Shown piece by piece: positions 3,212-50,583 of a stretch of 64,000 bases of DNA. This stretch comes from Rubrivivax sp. GTDB taxonomy: Bacteria > Pseudomonadota > Gammaproteobacteria > Burkholderiales > Burkholderiaceae_C. Both the position numbers and the translations under genes were made by a program. The DNA is taken from assembly GCA_004210455.1 (NCBI GenBank), contig SEFA01000026.1:1-64000 (forward strand), written 5' to 3'. Within the stretch, counting starts at the first letter, position 1, and each line of letters opens with the position of its first letter. The notes beneath the pieces were generated by a model. It ran no database searches, was not told the origin of the DNA, and saw only the letters and a program-made list of their open reading frames with translations.

Positions 3212-4654
3212 ATGGACCATGCCGCCCGGCCGGCCCGCAGGACATTCTCGTTCGGGCCTTTCACGCTGTTTCCCGAGCGCCAGCTGCTGATGCACGGCGC
3301 GACGCCGCTGCGCATCGGCGGGCGGGCGCTCGACCTGCTCATCGCGCTCATCGAGCGGCCCGGCGAAGTGGTGACCAAGCGCGAACTCATGGCCCGCGTC
3401 TGGCCGACGACGGTCGTCGACGAGAGCAACCTGAAGGTCAACATCGCCGGTCTGCGGCGCGTGCTGGGCGAAGGCGGCGGCGATCCCGAGTACATCGCCA
3501 CCGTCACCGGCCGCGGCTACCGTTTCGTGGCCGACGTGCTGTCGCCGGGGACCGCCCCGCCGCTTCCCCCGGGGACGCCGGCGCCGCCTCCGCACAACCT
3601 GCCCACGGGCACCGCCCGCATCGTCGGCCGCGACGAGGTGATCGCGGCGCTCGGACACGAGCTCGACAGCGCGCGGCAGGTGTCGCTCGTCGGCCCGGGC
3701 GGCATCGGCAAGACCACCGTCGCGCTGGCCGTCGCGCAGGGCGCGCTGGCCTCGTTCCGGGACGGCGTCTGGCTGGTGGATCTGGCGCCGCTGCAGGACG
3801 AGCGCCTCGTTCCCGACGCCGTCGCGACCGCCGTCGGGATGACCGCGCGTCCGGCCAACAGGCTGGCCGCGCTGTGCGGGTTCCTGCGCGACCGCGAGCT
3901 CCTGCTGGTGCTCGACAGCTGCGAGCACCTCATCGATGCGGTGGCCGCCTGCGTGACGCGCCTGCTCAAGGAAGCCCCGGGGGTGCGCATCCTCGTGACC
4001 AGCCGCGAGCCGCTCTGTCTGCAGGGTGAGCGGGTGCGGCGGCTGCCGGGTCTGGCCTCGCCCGCCGCGGGCGCCGTGCTCGACCGGGATCGCGCCTTGC
4101 GTTTCCCGGCTGTCGCGCTCTTCGTGGAGCGCGCCGCCGACCGCCTCGACGCCTTCCAGCTGGACGACGCGGACGCGCCGGCCGCCGCCGAGATCTGCCG
4201 GCGCCTGGACGGGCTGGCGCTGGCCATCGAGCTGGCCGCCACCCGCATCGACGCCTTCGGCGTCGGCGAGATCCTGGCCCAGTTGAACGACCGCTTCCGG
4301 CTGCTGCGCGGGCGGCGCTCCGGGCCCGACCGGCATCAGACGCTGATGGCCACGTTCGACTGGAGCTTCGATCTGCTGTCGCCCGAGGATCAACGACTGC
4401 TGTGCCGGCTGTCGGTCTTCGCCGGGGCGTTCAGCCTGGACGACGCGCTGGCGGTCGCCGTCGACGAGGCGCTGGGCGCCGGTGCCGTCATCGATGGCGT
4501 GGCCAATCTGGTGGCCAAGTCGCTGCTCGTCGCCGAGCCCGGCGACATCGATCTGGACTACCGGCTGCTGGACACGACGCGCGGCTATGCGCTGGAGAAG
4601 CTGGCCGCGGCCCGCAGCGCGCCCCTGGGCACCCGGGTCGTTAACCGCATTTAA
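3212..4654 (+). CDS. OmpR-type winged-helix / NB-ARC-like STAND regulator, short form (copy A)
   Basis: 480-aa predicted transcriptional regulator. Residues 10-105 form an OmpR/PhoB-type winged helix (typical signature TVTGRGYRFVA). A Pro-rich linker leads to a STAND NTPase with Walker A GPGGIGKTT at 161-169, Walker B LLLVLDSCEHL near 230-240, the TSREPL motif and the GLALAIE motif. The protein stops right after the winged-helix part of the NTPase module, just where its full-length paralogue (8965-11904) continues into a helical-repeat sensor. The start is the ATG preceded by GAGGAG about 10 nt upstream; the open frame extends further 5' but without family-like sequence. First of four tandem paralogues on the same strand. 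Confidence 0.85.
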   Translation: MDHAARPARRTFSFGPFTLFPERQLLMHGATPLRIGGRALDLLIALIERPGEVVTKRELMARVWPTTVVDESNLKVNIAGLRRVLGEGGGDPEYIATVTGRGYRFVADVLSPGTAPPLPPGTPAPPPHNLPTGTARIVGRDEVIAALGHELDSARQVSLVGPGGIGKTTVALAVAQGALASFRDGVWLVDLAPLQDERLVPDAVATAVGMTARPANRLAALCGFLRDRELLLVLDSCEHLIDAVAACVTRLLKEAPGVRILVTSREPLCLQGERVRRLPGLASPAAGAVLDRDRALRFPAVALFVERAADRLDAFQLDDADAPAAAEICRRLDGLALAIELAATRIDAFGVGEILAQLNDRFRLLRGRRSGPDRHQTLMATFDWSFDLLSPEDQRLLCRLSVFAGAFSLDDALAVAVDEALGAGAVIDGVANLVAKSLLVAEPGDIDLDYRLLDTTRGYALEKLAAARSAPLGTRVVNRI

Positions 4655-4655
4655 C
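4640..4655. promoter_or_regulatory. GTTAA-N6-TTAAC inverted-repeat element (site A)
   Basis: The sequence GTTAACCGCATTTAAC spans the stop codon of copy A and lies 60 nt upstream of the TTG start of copy B. It matches related elements at 15086-15101, 15203-15218 and 19235-19250, which sit at similar distances from start codons. The recurrence supports a regulator binding site; the regulator is unknown. Confidence 0.45.
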
Positions 4656-4715
4656 TTGAGCCGGGGCCGCCGACGAGGTACACCCCGGGCTTCGTGTATC
4701 CCTTTGGGAGCGACC

Positions 4716-6254
4716 TTGACGGCGCTTGTTTCCGAGGCGGCCAACGCCTTCGCGTTCGGGCCGTTCCTCCTCATCCCCGAACGGCAGCAGCTCCTGCGGC
4801 ATCAGGAGCCGCTGCGCGTGGGCGGTCGCGCGCTGGACCTGCTGACGGCGCTGGTGCAGCGTCCCGGCGAGGTCGTGTCCAAGCGTGACCTGATCGCGCG
4901 CGTCTGGCCCGGCCTGGTCGTGGAGGAGGGCAACCTCAAGGTCAACATCTCGGCCTTGCGCCGCCTGCTCGAGGACGGCGGCGACCCGTCGGGCTACATC
5001 GAGACCGTGGTCGGCCACGGCTACCGTTTCAACGGGGCGGTGCGCTTCGTCGCCTGCCGTGCGGCGCCGCCGCGCCTCCCGTCGCCGGCGCGCATCGACA
5101 ACCTGCCGGCGCTCGACCGCCCGCTGCGGGGCCGCGACGACACGATCGCCTCGGTCCTGCAGGACATCGAGGACTCGCGCCTGGTGTCCATCGTCGGCGC
5201 GGGCGGCATCGGCAAGACCACGGTGGCGGCGGCCGTCGCCCGGCAGGGCGCGGCCGCCTTCGAAAGAGGCGCCCGGTGGGTCGACCTGGCCGCGCTCGAA
5301 GACCCGGCGCTCGTGCCCGGCACGATCGCCGACGCCCTGCGCGACAGCGCCGGTCCGGCGCCGCCGGCGCGTCTGAGGACCGGGCCGGGCTGGGACCACG
5401 GCGTCCTGCTGGTGCTGGACAACTGCGAGCACCTGATCGCCGCGGTCGCGGCGTGCGCCGATCAGCTGCTGGCCACGACACGGCAGGTGAAGCTGCTCGC
5501 CACCAGCCGCGAGCCGCTCTCCATCCGCGGCGAACTGGTGCGGCGCCTGCCCGGACTGGCGCTCCCGCCCGAGCCGTCGACCTGGCTCGCGGCGCAACCA
5601 CCGGCAGCGGCGCAGGCGTTGAGCGCGGCGCAGCCATTGACCGCCGCGCAGGCGCTGTCCTGGCCTGCCGTGCAACTGCTGGTCGACCGGGCGCTCGCGG
5701 CGTCCGACGGGTTCCGTCTCGACGACACGAACGCCGCGGACGTCGTCGAGATCTGCCGCCGGCTCGACGGTCATGCGCTGGCGATCGAACGGGTCGCGCG
5801 CCGCCTCGGCACGCTGGGCGTGGCCGGGACGCTGGACCATCTGTCCCGGCGCTTCCACATGCTGGACGGCCATCACGAGGGGCCGGCGCGTCATCGGACG
5901 TTGACGGCGACGGTCGCCGCGAGCCACGACCTGCTGTGCGCCGGCGAGCAGGCCCTCCTGCGCCGTCTGGCCGTGTTCGACGGCCCGTTCCGGTTGGCCG
6001 ACGCGCGCGAGATCGGCGGCGGGGCGGACATGGCGGGCGCGCTCGTCGTCGACCACATCGGTCAGCTGGTGGCCAAATCGCTGCTGGTCGCCGAAGCCCG
6101 CGACGGCGAGATGCAGTACCGCCTGACCCAGCTCACACGGGCCTTCGCCATGGAACAACTGATCGCCCAGGGCGAACTCGACGACGTGCGGCATCGCCTG
6201 GCCGTGCTTCTCCCGAGCGTCCCGCGCCCGTCGTCGAAAGACGCGGCGACATGA
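4716..6254 (+). CDS. OmpR-type winged-helix / NB-ARC-like STAND regulator, short form (copy B)
   Basis: 512-aa paralogue of copy A with the same plan: winged helix at about residues 8-105, then Walker A GAGGIGKTT, Walker B VLLVLDNCEHL, ATSREPL and a degenerate HALAIE motif. It also ends at the boundary where full-length relatives begin their helical repeats. The start is inferred as TTG at 4716 because family homology begins there (FAFGPFLLIPERQ) and GGGAG lies 6 nt upstream; the longer upstream frame overlaps copy A and is not family-like. The linker near 5590-5660 is Ala/Gln-rich with repeated AAQ units. Its TGA overlaps the ATG of copy C by 4 nt, which implies translational coupling. Confidence 0.82.
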   Translation: MTALVSEAANAFAFGPFLLIPERQQLLRHQEPLRVGGRALDLLTALVQRPGEVVSKRDLIARVWPGLVVEEGNLKVNISALRRLLEDGGDPSGYIETVVGHGYRFNGAVRFVACRAAPPRLPSPARIDNLPALDRPLRGRDDTIASVLQDIEDSRLVSIVGAGGIGKTTVAAAVARQGAAAFERGARWVDLAALEDPALVPGTIADALRDSAGPAPPARLRTGPGWDHGVLLVLDNCEHLIAAVAACADQLLATTRQVKLLATSREPLSIRGELVRRLPGLALPPEPSTWLAAQPPAAAQALSAAQPLTAAQALSWPAVQLLVDRALAASDGFRLDDTNAADVVEICRRLDGHALAIERVARRLGTLGVAGTLDHLSRRFHMLDGHHEGPARHRTLTATVAASHDLLCAGEQALLRRLAVFDGPFRLADAREIGGGADMAGALVVDHIGQLVAKSLLVAEARDGEMQYRLTQLTRAFAMEQLIAQGELDDVRHRLAVLLPSVPRPSSKDAAT

Positions 6255-33634: not shown

Positions 33635-33703
33635 TCCAGGACCTGTCGACCGGGGTCGTCGGGAAGCAAACGAAAAAGGATTTGGAAGAACCGCAATCTG
33701 TCG

Positions 33704-34031
33704 ATGGCCAGCGACGCATGGACCGGGGCGCTGGTGAAGGCGCAGATGCCGGTCGTGACGGTGGCGCCCAACGACACGCTGCTGGAAAAGCTCAAGAGCA
33801 ACATGCAGGAAGTGCGCGCGCGGCGGCGAGTTGTTGGCGTTCGCCGACGGCGATACGAAGATCGTCAGCGAGCCGGAGCGCCACGACCTCCGCATGCTGG
33901 AACACCACGGCGCACTGGGCCTGATTCTGCGCACGGTGCCGCTTCAGCTGCTGACGTATCACACGGCCTGCGCACGCGGGACGGACGTGGCCAAGCCGCA
34001 TAACTTGGCGAAGAACGTGCCGGTGGAGTGA
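33704..34031 (+). pseudogene. glmS: Frameshifted 3' fragment of glmS (glucosamine-6-phosphate synthase)
   Basis: Only about the last 105-110 codons of GlmS are present. The first frame gives [20 protein letters not shown] and [13 protein letters not shown] +/-1 shift near 33815-33830 then leads to a second frame with [36 protein letters not shown] and the terminal NLAKNVPVE of the GlmS sugar isomerase domain. The N-terminal glutaminase and most of the isomerase domain are missing, so this cannot be functional. It sits at the left edge of a low-GC island, and the glmS 3' end is a classic integration landmark. Confidence 0.85.
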
Positions 34032-34293
34032 TCCCAAGGGGAGGAGGGGCCATGCGGTCCACTCCAAGTCCACCATCTGCTGGCGATTCCCGGCCCCGGG
34101 CCTGCGAGGTCCACGAGAAGAAAGGATGTCGGAACGGCCGTATTCCGATGGCTCCAATCGTTCACGTCATCAAAAGAGCTATTGACCTGACCTTCCGCTC
34201 GACTTCCGCACAACGCTGCTGGCCCATTCTGATCGGCCTCCTCTCAGAGTAGGGGGTCTGCGCAGAGAGCTTTCTTGCACTGCCGCACCGCCA

Positions 34294-37200
34294 TCAAGCT
34301 GCGTCTGCTGCTGGGCGCGGCAATGCGGGAGGGGGCACCGCCTTTGGAGGCACTAGAGCCGTATCCCCGATCGAAAGCTGGATGCTTCGCGTCATGAAGT
34401 ACAGAAGTTTGCGGTCTGCGGTGAGGATGCCGGACATGAAGCCTTGGCCAAGCAGCGGGAGCAGTTGCGTGATGAACCGACGCTCGACGGCAACTTGGTC
34501 TTTGAGGCGCCAGACGAGAGAGCTCTGTCGGAAAAGCTCAAGCATGTTGTCAACAGACTTCGACGACATGAAGTGCCGCCAGAGAATGTCGTGGCACTTG
34601 TTGAACAGCCAATCCATGCGCTGATTAAACAAGTATGAATACGCTCGCGTGCAATCCAATAACGCTTCCTGAGTCAGTGAGCCCGTCTGATTCAAGGACA
34701 ACTGCGCAAGCTCAAGAGATGCACGAATGAAGTTGTACGCTTCGTTCTCGCGGCGCGCGTTTTGCACAGCCTCCTGCAGGATAGCTTTCTTGCGCTCAGG
34801 GTCCTTGACTTTTGCTGCGCGCTCGATGGCTAGATTGTTGGACACGACGAACGCCTTACGCTTTATGGCTTCTTCTTGCAGGCGCAGCAGTTGGTTGTCT
34901 CGGTCTGCAAGATTTGCGTCGTCGTTTGAGATCGCGATGGCCTTGGCTTGGAGCCCGAGGTTAGTTTTCGGATCAATACGTTGGGCCCGCTGTGCGATGT
35001 CGACGATCTCAGCGCGGTCAACCTTGAGAGACTGACTTGCCAAGGCCAAGCCTAGGAGAACCTGCTGACGCATTGCTTTGGTCTTCGCAGTCTTCTCACA
35101 GATTTTAAGCAACTCGCGAGAACGTTCGCACTCGCCAATCATCCGCAACGCTTGTGCGTACTGAACCCGCGCCAGCTCTAGGTCAAGATCGACAACCAAG
35201 CCGGAGCGTTCATGCAACGGCAGTAGATCGTCATATAGGCCCGCAACGCTTCGATAGTGATCACCGGAGATCAATTGAGCGACAAATGCCGTCGCCAATG
35301 CAAGGGCCGTTTTGGCCTTAGAGGATAGACCACTACCAAGTGCTGCTCTTGTGGCGCGAAGGATCATCGTGCACGCATTGCCAATCTCCCGTGCGCTACA
35401 CCGAGAGTCTTTAAATTTCAGATCCGCCGGCGTACGAATCCCTCGCAACTCCCATTCATCCCCAAAGTAAAGCGACAGGGCTTTCGAACTCAATGTCCTG
35501 AGCTCAGCATCGGAGAGGGATCGAATGATGTACTCGCGTACGGGTCGCCGTACAACTAGCGCGCGACCGTCCTCCGCGATCGAACCTTGATTGCCGATCA
35601 AACTCACGGAAACCGCCTCGACCAACGCAAGTTCGACCAGTCGAGTCGCGTGACCAGGGAAAAACGCGCGCGTGCCGAAGAAGCGTCGCACCCGTGCATA
35701 CTGTTCTCCCTGAGGGAACATCGCCAGCACCTTGAGCAAGGCGTAGGCGCGGCTGCTGACGTCGTCTCTAGCCTCCGCGAGCTCTTGGATCGTCCTGGCC
35801 AAGCTTGGCGAGACGTCGCGGTTGACGATTTGCTTGCCAGCCACATCGGTGTCTATCTCAAGCAAATCCCGGAGGCCCACGACGTCCATTTCCTTGAGTG
35901 CGATGTCAATCTGGAAGGGGATACCGTCGGTGTGGCGGTGCAGCCGCCCGGCAGCATCAGGCTTGGTCAGGTGTGCGCCGCCCTTCGGGTGTGCTCCAAG
36001 GTACAGGGCCGTATCTGGCTCGTCCAATGCAGTCAGCTCAATTACTTGCAACGAGGTATCGCTTGGCGCCGACCGTGACCGAACGATCACGCAGAGTTCG
36101 GGGCAGTAGTCGAGGATGACCTGTACGAGTCCTTGTATCTGCTGCGCAATGGCAGAGGTGTCACCTGTCGCGCTAGCCACCTGCTCCAACTCCACATCGT
36201 CCAGAACGAGAATCGCCTCACCTTCGTCCGCCAAGCCCGAGCACAGGCGTGTGAAGCCGCAGCCAATGCGCTCCGACAAGCCTTCCACCACCTCCTCCTG
36301 CGTGTGGAACTTGTGAAGGTCCAAGTAATAAATCGGTCCGCGACGACCGAGTAATTGGAGCTGGACGCCATAGATGAATTCGTCTCCAGCCAGTCCCCAA
36401 TCGGTGACCAGCCATGCCTGGCGTTTCTCTTTCAATGCGGCAAGAAAGACGCTGCGCTCACCCTTTCGCACAGCGGCATGTGCCTCATTGAACGCCACTG
36501 GTCGAGTCAGGCGCGCGAGCACGTCCTTGATGCCGGTAGTGATGGCAAGAGGATCGATTCGGTCCTCGGGAGCAGGTGTGGGGATGAGTCCCTCAGAGAT
36601 AGTCGTTCCGACAACTGGGTCCAAGACCAAGTCGCAGTAGTTGTCCTCGGTCAACAGCCAGTCTTGATCGGCGACCAGACGCGGTGAAGCACCAGATTTT
36701 TTCCGCAGGATGCGAGGCCAGATTCGTATTGACCGTGCTCCCCCAACGGCAGGAATTTGAATCACGGCATATCCATGACTTCTTTCAATCTTGTCCTCGC
36801 CGTACGACTCTAAGCCAAACAAAGATGCGGCCTGAATCTCATGCCGGATCGGCCCCCCCGAGATTGACGTCGACCTTGAACGTGCCTCGTGCATGTGTCC
36901 GAAGAGATGAGCGTCGAACCTGCCGTCCGTGTTGAGTTCTTCTGCCCAGAGCTTTTGCGATGTGGGATGAAGCCACGCAAGTGGGTGATGCGTGATCAGC
37001 AAACGAAAATCATGCCGTGCACACCAGGCGTCAGGAGCGTTGGCCGTGACACCCATCAGTTGACGCGGATGGACGCACAAGCGACCTAGAAAATCTCCCC
37101 CAGCGCATTGCAACCAAGCTGAATTCAGTCCAATGAGGCCGATGCGATTTGAACCCTTCTGGAATGTGGCCGCGACGTCTCCAGGAAGAATGCCTCTGAC

Positions 37201-37683
37201 GGTCGCTAGGAAGGGTATTGCCGTCCCGACTTGGTCGACCCATGCCTCGTAATTCTCGAACCACTTGGCTACCGCTTGCCGGTAGTGAGAGTCGCTTGAT
37301 TTCCAGAAGTCAGCCTGTACCGCTGCGTCGTCCCACCAGGCGGTCATGACTTTCCCAGCGGGATCCATCTTGGCTGGTCGCGCGAGGTCATGATTGCCAG
37401 GAACGACAAAGAGCTTGGGAACAGAACCCAAGCCCTTGATATGTTCCCAAAGATCGATCAGAAGCCGAGTCAGTTGATCGAATTCATCCGAGCCCGCCTG
37501 CTGCGTCAGGTCGCCCGAGAAGATCACCAGATCCCATGGCCCGGTGCGGGCATGCATGTTTCGCAGGTCTTCGTACAGTGCGGTCCGAAACGTTGGCCAC
37601 ATCCAGTCTTGGCCAATCAATCCCAGGTGCAAGTCGCTCAGATGAAGCACGCGAGTCGGTTCACCAGCACTCTTGTTCTCCAT
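34294..37683 (-). CDS. Metallophosphoesterase / STAND-like NTPase / helical-repeat protein, candidate defence protein
   Basis: 1129 aa. Residues 10-330 form a calcineurin-like metallophosphoesterase with all metal motifs: SDLHLG (D17, H19), SGDLT (D58), PGNHD (96-99), ITHHP (232-233) and FGHMH (262-265). A STAND-like core follows at about 385-680, with TDWGLAGDEF where a Walker A loop is expected (no GK[ST]), a Walker B-like AILVLDDVE near 490, VIVRSRS near 535 and a TDGIPF motif. Residues about 700-1100 are alpha-helical repeats of TPR character. Effector-NTPase-repeat order is the plan of anti-phage STAND proteins; function is inferred. GC content is clearly below that of the neighbours. 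It is divergent from the membrane protein at 37914. Confidence 0.82.
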   Translation of the reverse strand: MENKSAGEPTRVLHLSDLHLGLIGQDWMWPTFRTALYEDLRNMHARTGPWDLVIFSGDLTQQAGSDEFDQLTRLLIDLWEHIKGLGSVPKLFVVPGNHDLARPAKMDPAGKVMTAWWDDAAVQADFWKSSDSHYRQAVAKWFENYEAWVDQVGTAIPFLATVRGILPGDVAATFQKGSNRIGLIGLNSAWLQCAGGDFLGRLCVHPRQLMGVTANAPDAWCARHDFRLLITHHPLAWLHPTSQKLWAEELNTDGRFDAHLFGHMHEARSRSTSISGGPIRHEIQAASLFGLESYGEDKIERSHGYAVIQIPAVGGARSIRIWPRILRKKSGASPRLVADQDWLLTEDNYCDLVLDPVVGTTISEGLIPTPAPEDRIDPLAITTGIKDVLARLTRPVAFNEAHAAVRKGERSVFLAALKEKRQAWLVTDWGLAGDEFIYGVQLQLLGRRGPIYYLDLHKFHTQEEVVEGLSERIGCGFTRLCSGLADEGEAILVLDDVELEQVASATGDTSAIAQQIQGLVQVILDYCPELCVIVRSRSAPSDTSLQVIELTALDEPDTALYLGAHPKGGAHLTKPDAAGRLHRHTDGIPFQIDIALKEMDVVGLRDLLEIDTDVAGKQIVNRDVSPSLARTIQELAEARDDVSSRAYALLKVLAMFPQGEQYARVRRFFGTRAFFPGHATRLVELALVEAVSVSLIGNQGSIAEDGRALVVRRPVREYIIRSLSDAELRTLSSKALSLYFGDEWELRGIRTPADLKFKDSRCSAREIGNACTMILRATRAALGSGLSSKAKTALALATAFVAQLISGDHYRSVAGLYDDLLPLHERSGLVVDLDLELARVQYAQALRMIGECERSRELLKICEKTAKTKAMRQQVLLGLALASQSLKVDRAEIVDIAQRAQRIDPKTNLGLQAKAIAISNDDANLADRDNQLLRLQEEAIKRKAFVVSNNLAIERAAKVKDPERKKAILQEAVQNARRENEAYNFIRASLELAQLSLNQTGSLTQEALLDCTRAYSYLFNQRMDWLFNKCHDILWRHFMSSKSVDNMLELFRQSSLVWRLKDQVAVERRFITQLLPLLGQGFMSGILTADRKLLYFMTRSIQLSIGDTALVPPKAVPPPALPRPAADAA

Positions 37684-37913
37684 TTTCCTTCCTCCCCTTC
37701 CAATCGCTCTGAGCGCCTTTTTCGTATGAGCCGAGAGTAGCAGAGTAAATCCAACAGCCTCCCTCGGAGGAAGGGAGAGTCATCACGAACACGCCATTCG
37801 GATGAGACCGCAACTCCTCAGTTGGCGAGGCAGATTCCGATTGGCTGGCTCGCCTGGTGAGCCACCAGGATGCGAAGCTCCCTCCCACATACATTCCGTG
37901 GGAGGAATCATTG

Positions 37914-38846
37914 ATGGACTTCGTATCCTTTGCCGGCGCTCTGAAAGACCTGTTCTCCGCGCTCTCTGGTTTTGGCTTGACCGCAGGCGGCACGGCCATC
38001 GTCGCGGTCTGCGCTTTGCTTTACAGCCGGACGTCCTCGGCCCACCCGGTGCTTGCCCTGTTGTGGATGCGTTTCTTCGGCAAACTGACCATCGATGATG
38101 CGAAGGTCCAGAAGTATGTAGACGAGCTGAACAGTCTTTCCCGCTTCACCTTCTTCACGCGGATCCGCTCCCAGACCTTGCGTGACGCCCATGGCGTACT
38201 GGACTGGTGCCAGCAATGGAACGTGGCACCTTCGCTGGTGCGCGCGTGCGGAGACAACTTTGATCTGACGCTGCCCGGGCTCAGGAACGGCAAGGGCCCT
38301 AAGGGTTGGTCGCTCGTGTTCCTGTTCTTGATCTTCACACTCATGACGACTGCGGGGATCGGCAGCGCCGCGCTCATGGTGCCGGACGCCGCGCTGGTGA
38401 CGTTCAACGATTCCGGCAACTCACTCTGGTTGTCTGAGACGTCGGCGCTGCGCTTCCCAGTGCGCGGGAAGAAGAGACTTGAACAGCACGACTGCAAAGA
38501 GCCGGGAGGCGAGTTGAGTCAACGCACCGGATTTGCCGAAGGCGAGGTGGAGATCCTGTGCTCGTTCTTCTCGGGCAAGGACAAGTCGCCCGCAGAGTAT
38601 GTGGAGCGGAACGTTCAGCAGAACAGGACCGCGCTCGGCGTGGTGGGCGCGATGAGCCTCGTCTTTGCCTTTGTGATCTGGGGTGAAGTGCGCCGCAACG
38701 TCGCGGCAAGCCAACTGGAAAAACATCTCTTGAGGCACGCAGAACGAGTCAAAGGTCCGCTTACTGAGGGCGACAAGGCCGAGCCAGACGCCCCATCGGT
38801 CGGCGTGCTCGCCATGGATGCGAAGCTCTTGGCCCGGCAGGACTGA
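37914..38846 (+). CDS. Membrane protein of unknown function in the low-GC island
   Basis: 310 aa from the ATG with GGAGG 8 nt upstream. Three hydrophobic segments are visible: about 17-37 (TAGGTAIVAVCALLY), about 130-155 (LVFLFLIFTLMTTAGIGSAA) and about 245-265 (ALGVVGAMSLVFAFVIW). The 100 residues between the last two hold two Cys (HDC and ILCSFF) and may be periplasmic. No family is recognised with confidence. It is divergently transcribed from the metallophosphoesterase-STAND gene across 230 bp and ends 15 nt before a convergent gene, so it may be the partner of the former. Confidence 0.75.
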   Translation: MDFVSFAGALKDLFSALSGFGLTAGGTAIVAVCALLYSRTSSAHPVLALLWMRFFGKLTIDDAKVQKYVDELNSLSRFTFFTRIRSQTLRDAHGVLDWCQQWNVAPSLVRACGDNFDLTLPGLRNGKGPKGWSLVFLFLIFTLMTTAGIGSAALMVPDAALVTFNDSGNSLWLSETSALRFPVRGKKRLEQHDCKEPGGELSQRTGFAEGEVEILCSFFSGKDKSPAEYVERNVQQNRTALGVVGAMSLVFAFVIWGEVRRNVAASQLEKHLLRHAERVKGPLTEGDKAEPDAPSVGVLAMDAKLLARQD

Positions 38847-38861
38847 TGCCCGCTCCCGACA

Positions 38862-39377
38862 TTAGCTCGCCGATCCCCCGAACCGCACCCGCTCCGGCTC
38901 TTCCATCGCCTTCGGCGTGCTGCTGGCCAGGCAGTTGGTCGAGTCGTCGAGCGTCAGCACGAAGTTGTTGATCGGGTTGTTGAACTGGTAGCTGAGCGAG
39001 TAGATCGCGCCATACACGCCCGGCGGCGGACGCGACGGATCGAAGTAGGCGCCGAACACCCACTTGCCGTAGATCCCCAGCGGCGACTGCTCGTACCGCT
39101 GGCCCTCGAAGGTCGTCTGCGCCTTCATGATCTGCGTGGCGGGGTTGATGGTGTGCTTGCTCACCGACTTCTTGCCGAGCAGCCTGCCGAACTTCTCGCG
39201 GCAGACCGCGTCCTTCGACGGATCGGCCGAGCCGTTCTTCTGCAGACCGATGATCGACTTGATCTCGGTGGTCGTCATGCCTTCCTTGGGCACGCTCGGT
39301 GGATCCCCGGCCGCCTGGGCCGCGAAGGCCGACAGCAGCAGAGGGAGTGGGGCGACGGAGACGTGACGCTGTGCCAT
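38862..39377 (-). CDS. Secreted protein of unknown function
   Basis: 171 aa from ATG 39377, preceded by AAGGA 8 nt upstream. A signal peptide is visible (SVAPLPLLLSAFAAQAAG). The mature part has FDPSRPPPGVYGAIYSLSYQ and a Cys near each end (AVCREKF, STNCLASS) that may pair. No family is recognised. It is divergent from the GH16 glucanase gene, with a LacI-type palindrome between them, which hints at joint control. Confidence 0.7.
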   Translation of the reverse strand: MAQRHVSVAPLPLLLSAFAAQAAGDPPSVPKEGMTTTEIKSIIGLQKNGSADPSKDAVCREKFGRLLGKKSVSKHTINPATQIMKAQTTFEGQRYEQSPLGIYGKWVFGAYFDPSRPPPGVYGAIYSLSYQFNNPINNFVLTLDDSTNCLASSTPKAMEEPERVRFGGSAS

Positions 39378-39535
39378 GGTGTGAAGTCCTTTCGCGCCGG
39401 CACTTGCCGGCGGGGCCATGGTCGAGGGGCGCCGGACGGCCGCCCATCGGCGCGCGGCTGAATCCGGGGACTCCCGAATCCTGAGCTCACACACCGACCC
39501 CTGCTTTCAAGCCGTTTCAATCCAAAACCCCATTT

Positions 39536-49194: not shown

Positions 49195-50583
49195 TCAATC
49201 TTTGTTCCGCGCTGGGTGTTTCGCCATTCCTCCGGATGCTGTGCTGGTCGCCTTCTGATTGAGCTTCTTCTTCATCGTCGGAATGATGATGTGGCGAAGC
49301 GCCCTCACGAATCGCGATTCTCCGCCCGCATTCACTCGCGCCTTCTCCGGCATCGTCGCGTGCGTCTGCGTCATCGACCGTTCTGCGAGTTCGAGCAGCG
49401 CGTCGGACTTGTCGACCATCTCGGTCACGATGCGCTCCGCAGTGCGGGCATTCAATCCGAGTTCGATTCCTGCATTCACGACGACGTCGCGATTGACGTC
49501 GTGGAACGTCTTCGCTCCGGTAAGAGGGATGGTCATCCTCACGTGCGGCCAGGTCGCTCCTTCGTCCGCAACCGACGCGGTATAGAAGTAGCCCGTTGCA
49601 ATCAGGTCGTAATGAGGCGCGAGTTGAATGCCATTCTTGGAGACGAAGAAGGACAGGTTCTTCAGGTGGTTGTCGTCGTTGGCTACGAGGATGTTGAAGA
49701 CGAGCCAGCGGAAGATCCCGACGCGCGTCTTGATCCGACTGGTCGTCGCCGCAATGATTTCCTTCAAGGCCTGCATGCCCGCACCGGAGTGCTTGTAGAG
49801 ACGACTGCGATTCAGTAGTTGGCAGGCGTCGATGATGTGCAGCCGCGCGACGTCGAGTTCCGGGGCGCCTGAATCGCCCACTGCACGCTTGACCACCTTC
49901 CGATCGAATCGCTCGATGATGTACACAGGCTCAGGCACGTAGTGAATGTGCACGGCGGGCACATCAAGCCTCGCCTCTTTGGCCATGAGCATCGTCAGAT
50001 ATTCGTTCATCACCGACGCCGGATAGGTGCTCGGGTCCGGATGGCTCGGCTTGAGGATATGCGTCGATGCGGTAGCACCCGCAGGCTCGTACAGCTCTCC
50101 GTCGACGTAGCTGACCAGCATCTTGTGCTGCGCGCCGGCGAGTGACATTCGCTTCGACGCTTGGTGGGTCAGCGTTTCCTTGGGAAGGTTGGAGATGCGC
50201 TTGCTCAGTTCCGCATCGGAGAGCGGCAGCAGCGCTTGCGGCTGCGGGATCGGCCCATCCGGAGGCAGCAACGTGAGCGAGCCTGCCGACTCTGCGCCGA
50301 GGTATTCCAGAAGGCCGAAAGCATCCTCGCCCCGGATGTCGGCTTCCTTGCTGATGGCCTCGCGCAGCCGCTCCTCCGGGAGCAGGTTGTCGAAGAACCA
50401 CTGGACGGGGCGGCTGGTGCCGCCATCAACGATGGGGTCCTTGGATCGCGGCAGCCCTGGCGCCAAGGCGAAGCCATCGGGTGCGTCGACCCATGCCGAG
50501 TCGTACTGGAGCGTCCAGATGTCGTCGCCCTCAAGCAGCTCGCCAATCAGGCGTGCTCCGATGAAGATATTCAATCGCCTCAT
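49195..50583 (-). CDS. hipA: HipA-family serine/threonine kinase toxin
   Basis: 462 aa. The N-terminal HipA-type domain (about 1-105) includes WFFDNLLPEERLREAI. The kinase core has SLAGAQHKMLVSYVDGELYE (nucleotide loop), the catalytic NDDNHLKNLSFFV and the metal-binding HYDLIATG. A basic, low-complexity tail (MKKKLNQKATSTASGG) extends the usual length by about 30 residues. HipA toxins phosphorylate a translation factor such as a glutamyl-tRNA synthetase, giving growth arrest. The ATG overlaps the hipB stop. Confidence 0.92.
   Translation of the reverse strand: MRRLNIFIGARLIGELLEGDDIWTLQYDSAWVDAPDGFALAPGLPRSKDPIVDGGTSRPVQWFFDNLLPEERLREAISKEADIRGEDAFGLLEYLGAESAGSLTLLPPDGPIPQPQALLPLSDAELSKRISNLPKETLTHQASKRMSLAGAQHKMLVSYVDGELYEPAGATASTHILKPSHPDPSTYPASVMNEYLTMLMAKEARLDVPAVHIHYVPEPVYIIERFDRKVVKRAVGDSGAPELDVARLHIIDACQLLNRSRLYKHSGAGMQALKEIIAATTSRIKTRVGIFRWLVFNILVANDDNHLKNLSFFVSKNGIQLAPHYDLIATGYFYTASVADEGATWPHVRMTIPLTGAKTFHDVNRDVVVNAGIELGLNARTAERIVTEMVDKSDALLELAERSMTQTHATMPEKARVNAGGESRFVRALRHIIIPTMKKKLNQKATSTASGGMAKHPARNKD

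Follow-up and report, generated by a model that had tools for sequence, protein, structure and literature searches.

A metallophosphoesterase on a STAND-like chassis without Walker A: a candidate single-gene antiphage receptor from Rubrivivax

INTRODUCTION

Immune proteins of the NLR-like kind are usually portrayed as switches driven by ATP. DS-8, a metallophosphoesterase (MPE)-NACHT protein from DefensePredictor, protects Escherichia coli from phage, and mutation of either its MPE site or its NACHT ATPase site abolishes protection, according to the available text of PMC13092281. The accessible part of PMC12931631 describes Avs5, a SIR2-STAND protein, as carrying the P-loop GPAGSGKT and needing it for defence. 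As described in PMC7159879 and PMC8195603, iSTAND and iSTAND2 form a further group: proteins of STAND fold whose NTP-binding motifs are eroded and whose N-terminal effector or signalling domains vary, and which belong to conflict systems as the third component alongside MoxR and vWA. Here we analyse a 1129-amino-acid (aa) protein encoded in a 64,000-nucleotide stretch of Rubrivivax sp. (GenBank assembly GCA_004210455.1, contig SEFA01000026.1, positions 1 to 64,000; hereafter the window), in which an MPE domain precedes a STAND-like hub and helical repeats, the last two together called the chassis. An earlier note on this DNA had proposed it as a candidate uncharacterised defence system built on the plan of Avs-type and related proteins.

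We consider it probable that this protein is a mobile single-gene NLR-like antiphage (anti-mobile-element) receptor with a phosphoesterase effector. Sequence comparison and structure models show that the metal site is complete, that the hub has a STAND fold but no Walker A and that the C terminus consists of repeats, and they show mobility and module exchange with immune proteins; a phage trigger, autoinhibition, the substrate and ATP independence are inferred. The effector-STAND-repeat kind is already known, and a chassis family spanning MPE and SIR2 effectors is unnamed in the libraries searched. Our literature search, with supplements, subscription journals and bioRxiv proper outside its scope, found no published description of the MPE-chassis family. 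With at least 120 listed homologues, the family broadens the range of the recently validated phosphoesterase effectors (DS-8, DS-9); it carries its effector within the protein or in a neighbouring gene, apparently dispenses with the ATP motif while natural cousins keep it, and draws attention to plasmids of Enterobacterales and Vibrio that carry a SIR2 branch. Because there are cousins with the ATP motif and the effector placement is switchable, the need for a nucleotide switch is testable across natural relatives.

RESULTS AND DISCUSSION

A complete phosphoesterase on a repeat chassis

The gene and the parts of its protein are as follows.

34294..37683, reverse strand: 1129-aa protein of MPE, degenerate STAND and TPR-like repeats, taken as a single-gene system (open reading frame, Pfam, homologues, structure models)
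36619..37656, reverse strand: calcineurin-like metallophosphoesterase, residues 10-355, complete metal site, predicted effector
35518..36531, reverse strand: STAND/NB-ARC-like alpha/beta core with helical and winged-helix-like parts and no Walker A, residues 385-722
36376..36414, reverse strand: strand-loop-helix at the P-loop position, residues 424-436 (WLVTDWGLAGDEF), with W424, W429 and G430 invariant in 48/48 rows
34369..35511, reverse strand: helical (TPR-like) repeats, residues 725-1105, predicted sensor
37686..37697, reverse strand: Shine-Dalgarno-like purine-rich stretch just 5' of the ATG (sequence reading)

The open reading frame (ORF) described in the earlier note is present, with the Shine-Dalgarno-like stretch before its ATG, and its G+C content is lower than that of the window, as had been claimed (0.568 versus 0.678). 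Metallophos (PF00149) was the sole domain recognised in a Pfam scan (residues 11-266, E = 1.7e-12, 48.6 bits against a cut-off of 21.5). The dimetal-site motifs of this family (DxH, GD, GNHD, H and GHxH) are complete in the protein, and in a 48-row alignment of relatives, the basis of the conservation counts given here, D58, N97, H98, D99, H232, H233, H263 and H265 are identical in 48/48, and D17 and H19 in 44/48, which are all the rows with a residue there. The Pfam match and these residues bear out the earlier claim of a complete five-motif phosphoesterase. A protein search returned 643 homologues at E ≤ 1e-3 (7988 candidates scored), with query coverage of 76-100% among the best 120, which were listed.

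PADLOC and NCBIfam matches were confined to the N-terminal part. PADLOC, which includes Avs models, named no Avs family at E ≤ 1, the only matches being PDC-S60, the "Effector" endonuclease and PDC-S10; PDC-S60, a phage-defence candidate, shares the N-terminal MPE type (E = 2.6e-20, residues 11-310), and no match was reported over the remaining 800 residues. DS8_antiphage (NF053861 of NCBIfam) scored 49.3 bits against a 790-bit cut-off, over residues 14-273 only, and DS9_1 of the same library 39.7 against 420; SbcD and LpxG gave weaker matches to the N-terminal part.

Since the MPE fills most rows of the whole-protein VIA fold list, the chassis was folded separately; absence from those VIA lists does not exclude a fold family. 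Two AlphaFold2 models (predicted local distance difference test scores of 86.2 and 85.8) and fold searches gave a STAND-like module and some 380 residues of helical repeats, close to the roughly 400 announced beforehand; in the module, helical and winged-helix parts come after an NB-ARC/NACHT-like fold. The comparison with Avs/NLR-like structures that had been proposed as a check yielded an NLR/STAND fold, and the module whose absence had been named as counter-evidence is there in the model. Foldseek gave matches to Avs3 (E = 1.6e-7) and EfAvs5 (E = 9e-4), and the best solved match of the chassis was 6mfv, an archaeal STAND-TPR protein that we take to be of the PH0952 type (E = 1.1e-9); identity to 6mfv is 14%, and no MPE appears in the title or alignment of the matched 641-residue chain.

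The protein resembles DS-8, as described in the available text on that system, in its N-terminal metallophosphatase, central STAND-class module and single gene, and also in the SMPDL3A-like fold of its phosphoesterase, but its match to the DS-8 model stops at the MPE, far below the cut-off, and the ATPase residue that DS-8 is reported to need has no Walker A counterpart here. With Avs5 and Avs3 it shares an N-terminal effector, a STAND module and a repeat sensor, but it has no P-loop like the one reported as necessary in Avs5. By analogy it would work like DS-8 and the Avs proteins, yet it lacks the membership features of both that we tested.

SIR2 proteins carry a homologous chassis

Residues 389-1081 align, at 23% identity and over some 700 aa, with proteins fused to SIR2 and with a chassis gene that stands alone: a Klebsiella variicola plasmid SIR2 protein over 713 alignment columns (23% identity, pairwise E = 1e-36) and an Enterobacter chassis gene over 702 (23%, pairwise E = 5e-36). 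The homology is contiguous over residues ~389-1081, by which we define the SIR2/MPE-chassis family, and a C-terminal YxYLFxQRxDxLFNRCHxLLW region is common to the 1129-aa protein and the SIR2-chassis proteins of Enterobacterales and Vibrio plasmids, in which SIR2, fused or separate, replaces the MPE. SIR2 and chassis, in that order, are neighbouring genes on Enterobacter, Proteus and Vibrio plasmids; MPE and chassis are overlapping genes on a Pseudomonas plasmid and two ORFs in genome G1337. A ten-sequence chassis profile recovered 34 proteins at E ≤ 1e-10, with no precomputed effector domain, with SIR2 or, in one (P0172), with MPE. A midpoint-rooted FastTree tree of 175 chassis separates the MPE-type tips, 121 of them fused and 2 split, from the SIR2-type tips; 23 stand-alone chassis and two slices with an unseen effector fall on the SIR2 side.

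Exchange extends to the MPE as well. Nine MPE proteins with other partners, picked by eye from 27 such loci, were scanned with Pfam, and in place of the chassis they carry NACHT (L018, L026 and L030, one of them also with DUF4062 and an FGE-sulfatase domain), NB-ARC and TPR (L021, L028 and L034) or caspase (L022 and L025); the ninth joins MPE to a PfkB-family kinase (L039:9983-12247, Geobacter, E = 3.1e-35).

SIR2-chassis proteins are annotated "SIR2 family protein" or "hypothetical", and the SIR2-branch chassis gave no PADLOC or NCBIfam match in five proteins scanned. Neither the Klebsiella SIR2-chassis gene nor the Enterobacter stretch of SIR2 and chassis had a megablast match in complete E. 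coli genomes. On the Proteus plasmid the SIR2-chassis pair lies just after two integrases and about 2.3 kb before a CBASS operon; the pair is followed by regulators and then the annotated cyclase-cap7-cap6-nucC genes, and the stretch (L117:3994-11899) forms a compact plasmid defence island. The SIR2-chassis genes of L107 and L114, two plasmids of different replicon types, are preceded at 0.5-3 kb by genes annotated TrlF family AAA-like ATPase, which could reflect either a partner of the SIR2-chassis or shared ancestry.

The hub lacks a Walker A motif

The Walker A P-loop of STAND NTPases reads GxxxxGK[ST]. In the aligned relatives GK[ST] occurs at the P-loop position in 0/48 (a single regular-expression match, in P0090, falls outside the loop as printed), and the loop that joins the first strand to the helix keeps W424, W429 and G430 in all of them. 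None of the 120 MPE-plus-chassis proteins (119 of the 120 listed homologues plus P0172) has GK[ST], and the unclassed P0051 also lacks it; GK alone is found in two (P0097 and P0117) and absent in 118. The STAND-like core of the earlier note is thus upheld as a fold, by models and fold searches, and qualified by the missing Walker A. Its Avs-type plan likewise stands for the order of effector, STAND-like module and repeats, and falls short in the defining NTP-binding motif of STAND proteins and in the PADLOC result.

Among the SIR2-fused database relatives (Enterobacterales group), GK is present in 24/24 and GK[ST] in 7/24, so that these forms keep the lysine and often lose the Ser/Thr; the Vibrio fused (L112) and Proteus split (L117) chassis have lost both, which contradicts the simple rule that the SIR2 branch retains the lysine. 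Where no N-terminal domain was recognised (35 sequences, duplicates and slices included), 20 have GK[ST], 3 have GK and 12 have neither, and one stand-alone chassis, P0123, has a Pfam AAA match (E = 2.5e-5) just under the model's cut-off. In the simplest reading of these sequences, an ancestral P-loop would be eroding in the SIR2 branch, and the MPE branch would have lost it and would carry a conserved W-G in its place.

Because ATPase-site mutation is reported to abolish defence in DS-8 and Avs5, a hub without Walker A is a real departure. We suggest tentatively, at somewhat short of an even chance, that the whole MPE branch has abandoned the ATP switch these two proteins need and that the SIR2 branch is losing it, sensing being coupled to interchangeable effectors without nucleotide exchange; the 1129-aa protein would then work without nucleotide. 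The same defence role could also be served by a remodelled P-loop, in which W-G-x-G and a Walker B-like DD still bind ADP, ATP or a different nucleotide although the Lys-Ser/Thr pair is missing. In its favour, the loop shows conservation and not decay, Asp occupies the Walker B-like positions D495 and D496 in 40/48 and 42/48 relatives, the Enterobacterales SIR2-fused proteins keep their GK, and the available text on DS-8 and Avs5 has both requiring their ATPase sites. Against this stand the counts for GK and GK[ST] in MPE-type proteins and the SIR2-type chassis of Vibrio and Proteus without the lysine, and we regard remodelling as rather unlikely.

A rare family on mobile DNA

Comparison with two genomes of the same genus delimits the insertion that carries the gene.

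33638..39493, no strand: inserted island, ends approximate (comparison with same-genus genomes G304 and G303)

The flanks of this island are about 50 bp apart in G304, and in G303 they enclose another island of 8.9 kb (L067:4955-13900), which encodes an HNH_2 protein, a 1567-aa protein with a full-length PDC-S37 match (E = 0) and a 453-aa ORF that matched nothing in Pfam. One chromosomal site thus exists in three states, two of them with defence candidates. The island of the earlier note is confirmed as a mobile insertion and corrected in extent, since it had been placed at 34294..38846. No convincing direct repeats were found at the island ends.

The family is rare and patchy: at E ≤ 1e-60 it was found in 2/299 family-level, 2/399 order-level, 1/369 class-level and 3/398 phylum-level genomes, in partly overlapping samples that each count the genome itself. 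Full-length members lie on three contigs of a viral collection, adjoining phage tail genes (L102), about 2.5 kb from a repressor (L103), and next to an integrase gene and one resembling an excisionase (L104). Others lie near terminase genes (L014), adjoin invertase-type recombinases (L010 and L017), or are carried on a Rhizobium plasmid and a Pseudomonas plasmid. The phage collection gave no match to the 1129-aa protein or to a stand-alone chassis.

Such viral and plasmid contexts would also suit a prophage or plasmid counter-defence or superinfection factor, whose phosphoesterase destroys host cyclic-nucleotide alarm signals rather than acting against phage, and the fold of the domain resembles SMPDL3A, which cleaves cGAMP according to the available text of PMC13092281. 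The same chassis is, however, also joined to SIR2, which fits signal removal poorly; a long hub with repeats is unexpected in a scavenger; and the MPE-NACHT protein DS-8 is described in that source as protecting its host. We judge counter-defence quite improbable and return to an antiphage receptor.

No neighbour family recurs in more than 2/20 loci (197 proteins), which fits a single-gene system and argues against a conserved housekeeping locus, the setting that the earlier note had named as evidence against defence. This arrangement of one or two genes differs from that described for iSTAND and iSTAND2, although no search aimed at MoxR and vWA models was made.

How the receptor would act, and what weighs against it

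At rest, the C-terminal chassis would hold the phosphoesterase off. The repeats would bind a phage-made or infection-induced trigger, and binding would rearrange or oligomerise the hub without the normal ATP switch. The freed metal-dependent phosphodiesterase might then hydrolyse a nucleotide (a signal or the pool) or nucleic acid, and infection would be stopped, probably through cell arrest. The sister proteins pair this chassis with a SIR2 effector of the NAD-consuming type, in a fusion or as a neighbouring gene.

We favour an antiphage receptor because modules are swapped in both directions, two-gene versions exist and DS-8 is validated; because relatives have a PDC-S37/HNH island or an empty site, the distribution is patchy and the context is of phage and plasmids; and because no neighbour family recurs and the fold is that of NLR/STAND proteins. 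Module exchange, mobility, patchiness and the analogy with DS-8 also support defence as the likeliest role, which the earlier note had proposed.

Several points weigh against this reading. The link between the chassis and SIR2 proteins is one of 23% identity, and sequence search found no solved relative of the chassis. The phosphoesterase has fold matches as varied as nucleotidases, SMPDL3A, purple acid phosphatases and Mre11. The case for loss of ATP binding comes from sequence and models, and a noncanonical nucleotide site is possible. Several of the neighbourhoods listed resemble ordinary chromosome by eye. The defence-gene enrichment that had been expected near homologues did not emerge: with neighbours of at least 120 aa, midpoints within 5.5 kb of the gene and E ≤ 1e-15, there was no clear PADLOC excess beside MPE-type genes, with 26 families in 130 proteins from 20 loci versus 17 in 138 from 17 control stretches on the same contigs or genomes. 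The near set (25 of its 26 families are named) includes a CBASS cyclase with 2TM effector, Cas8f/Cas3f, AbiEii, PDC-M19A, PDC-M45B and PifA, and the control set AbiEii, RtcR, DRT, SoFic, mads and PDC-S24. CBASS was put at L017 and the Cas8f/Cas3f remnants at L003 by reading the proteins, an assignment made by eye because the PADLOC output names no member; PifA was confirmed at L081. The base rate for such a test is low, since 17% of known defence genes lie in defence islands, compared with 2% of all genes, in the available text of PMC13092281 on DefensePredictor.

The PADLOC result and the ordinary-looking chromosomal contexts, together with the relative that fuses MPE to PfkB, would fit a non-immune regulatory phosphoesterase in stress or nucleotide homeostasis that moves horizontally by chance. 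The rare and patchy distribution, the different islands at one site, the exchange of effectors with SIR2, NACHT and caspase proteins, and the validated architecture of DS-8, as its available text gives it, all run the other way and make a non-immune role improbable.

At L003:14680-17443 (Acidovorax delafieldii), the fragments assigned by eye to Cas8f and Cas3f (type I-F) beside the phosphoesterase gene are interrupted by a toxin-antitoxin-like pair.

Other genes of the island and its surroundings

Three further features lie within or at the edge of the island.

37857..38846, forward strand: DUF6216 protein, divergent, probably a passenger (Pfam E = 2.3e-52)
33706..34031, forward strand: frameshifted 3'-terminal glmS fragment that ends at the glmS stop codon (sequence comparison)
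38862..39494, reverse strand: 210-aa ORF without a Pfam match at the right island edge, with near-genomic G+C of 0.662

The range given in the earlier note contains the 1129-aa gene and also spans the DUF6216 gene. The two genes are adjacent and divergent, and both have low G+C (0.607 for the DUF6216 gene), which might suggest a two-gene system of phosphoesterase and DUF6216 protein. DUF6216 was not found among the called genes of the other 19 family loci; the crude gene caller overlooked the family gene of L079 and the MPE part of L081, and it may have overlooked a DUF6216 gene as well. As no neighbour family exceeds two of the 20 loci, DUF6216 as a partner is unsupported and such a system highly improbable. 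The family has no common tRNA site: no tRNA was found in the window, and a tRNA lies within 300 bp of the gene at 1/19 scanned loci (L004).

The 3' ends of glmS are classic targets of Tn7-like elements, and the phosphoesterase gene, which is oriented toward the glmS fragment, may therefore once have occupied a glmS island; we read the fragment as a scar of an earlier location or of a rearrangement. The intact glmS of this genome lies on another contig (L073), where an AAA_21/AAA_15 (AbiEii/OLD-like) ORF (3631-5457, forward strand) occupies the equivalent convergent position. A Tn7-end-like motif, matched with one optional extra base, lies 44 bp past the glmS stop there, and a Tn7-like island with defence cargo is possible at that locus. 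The Tn7-end consensus pattern matched L073 once, a number reached in 40/200 shuffles, and the window three times, never in the island or beside the glmS fragment, a number reached in 5/100.

On two plasmids a phosphoesterase gene is followed by a GASH-annotated gene and further genes (L120:5995-12115, Klebsiella; L121:4995-10888, Pantoea), an arrangement that resembles the GTPase-associated conflict systems in the available text of PMC7159879. In the window itself, a HipA-family kinase (49195-50583, reverse strand; HipA_C E = 1.1e-45, Couple_hipA) sits in a second G+C dip (0.58-0.61) about 10 kb to the right of the island and may be another acquired toxin or defence module.

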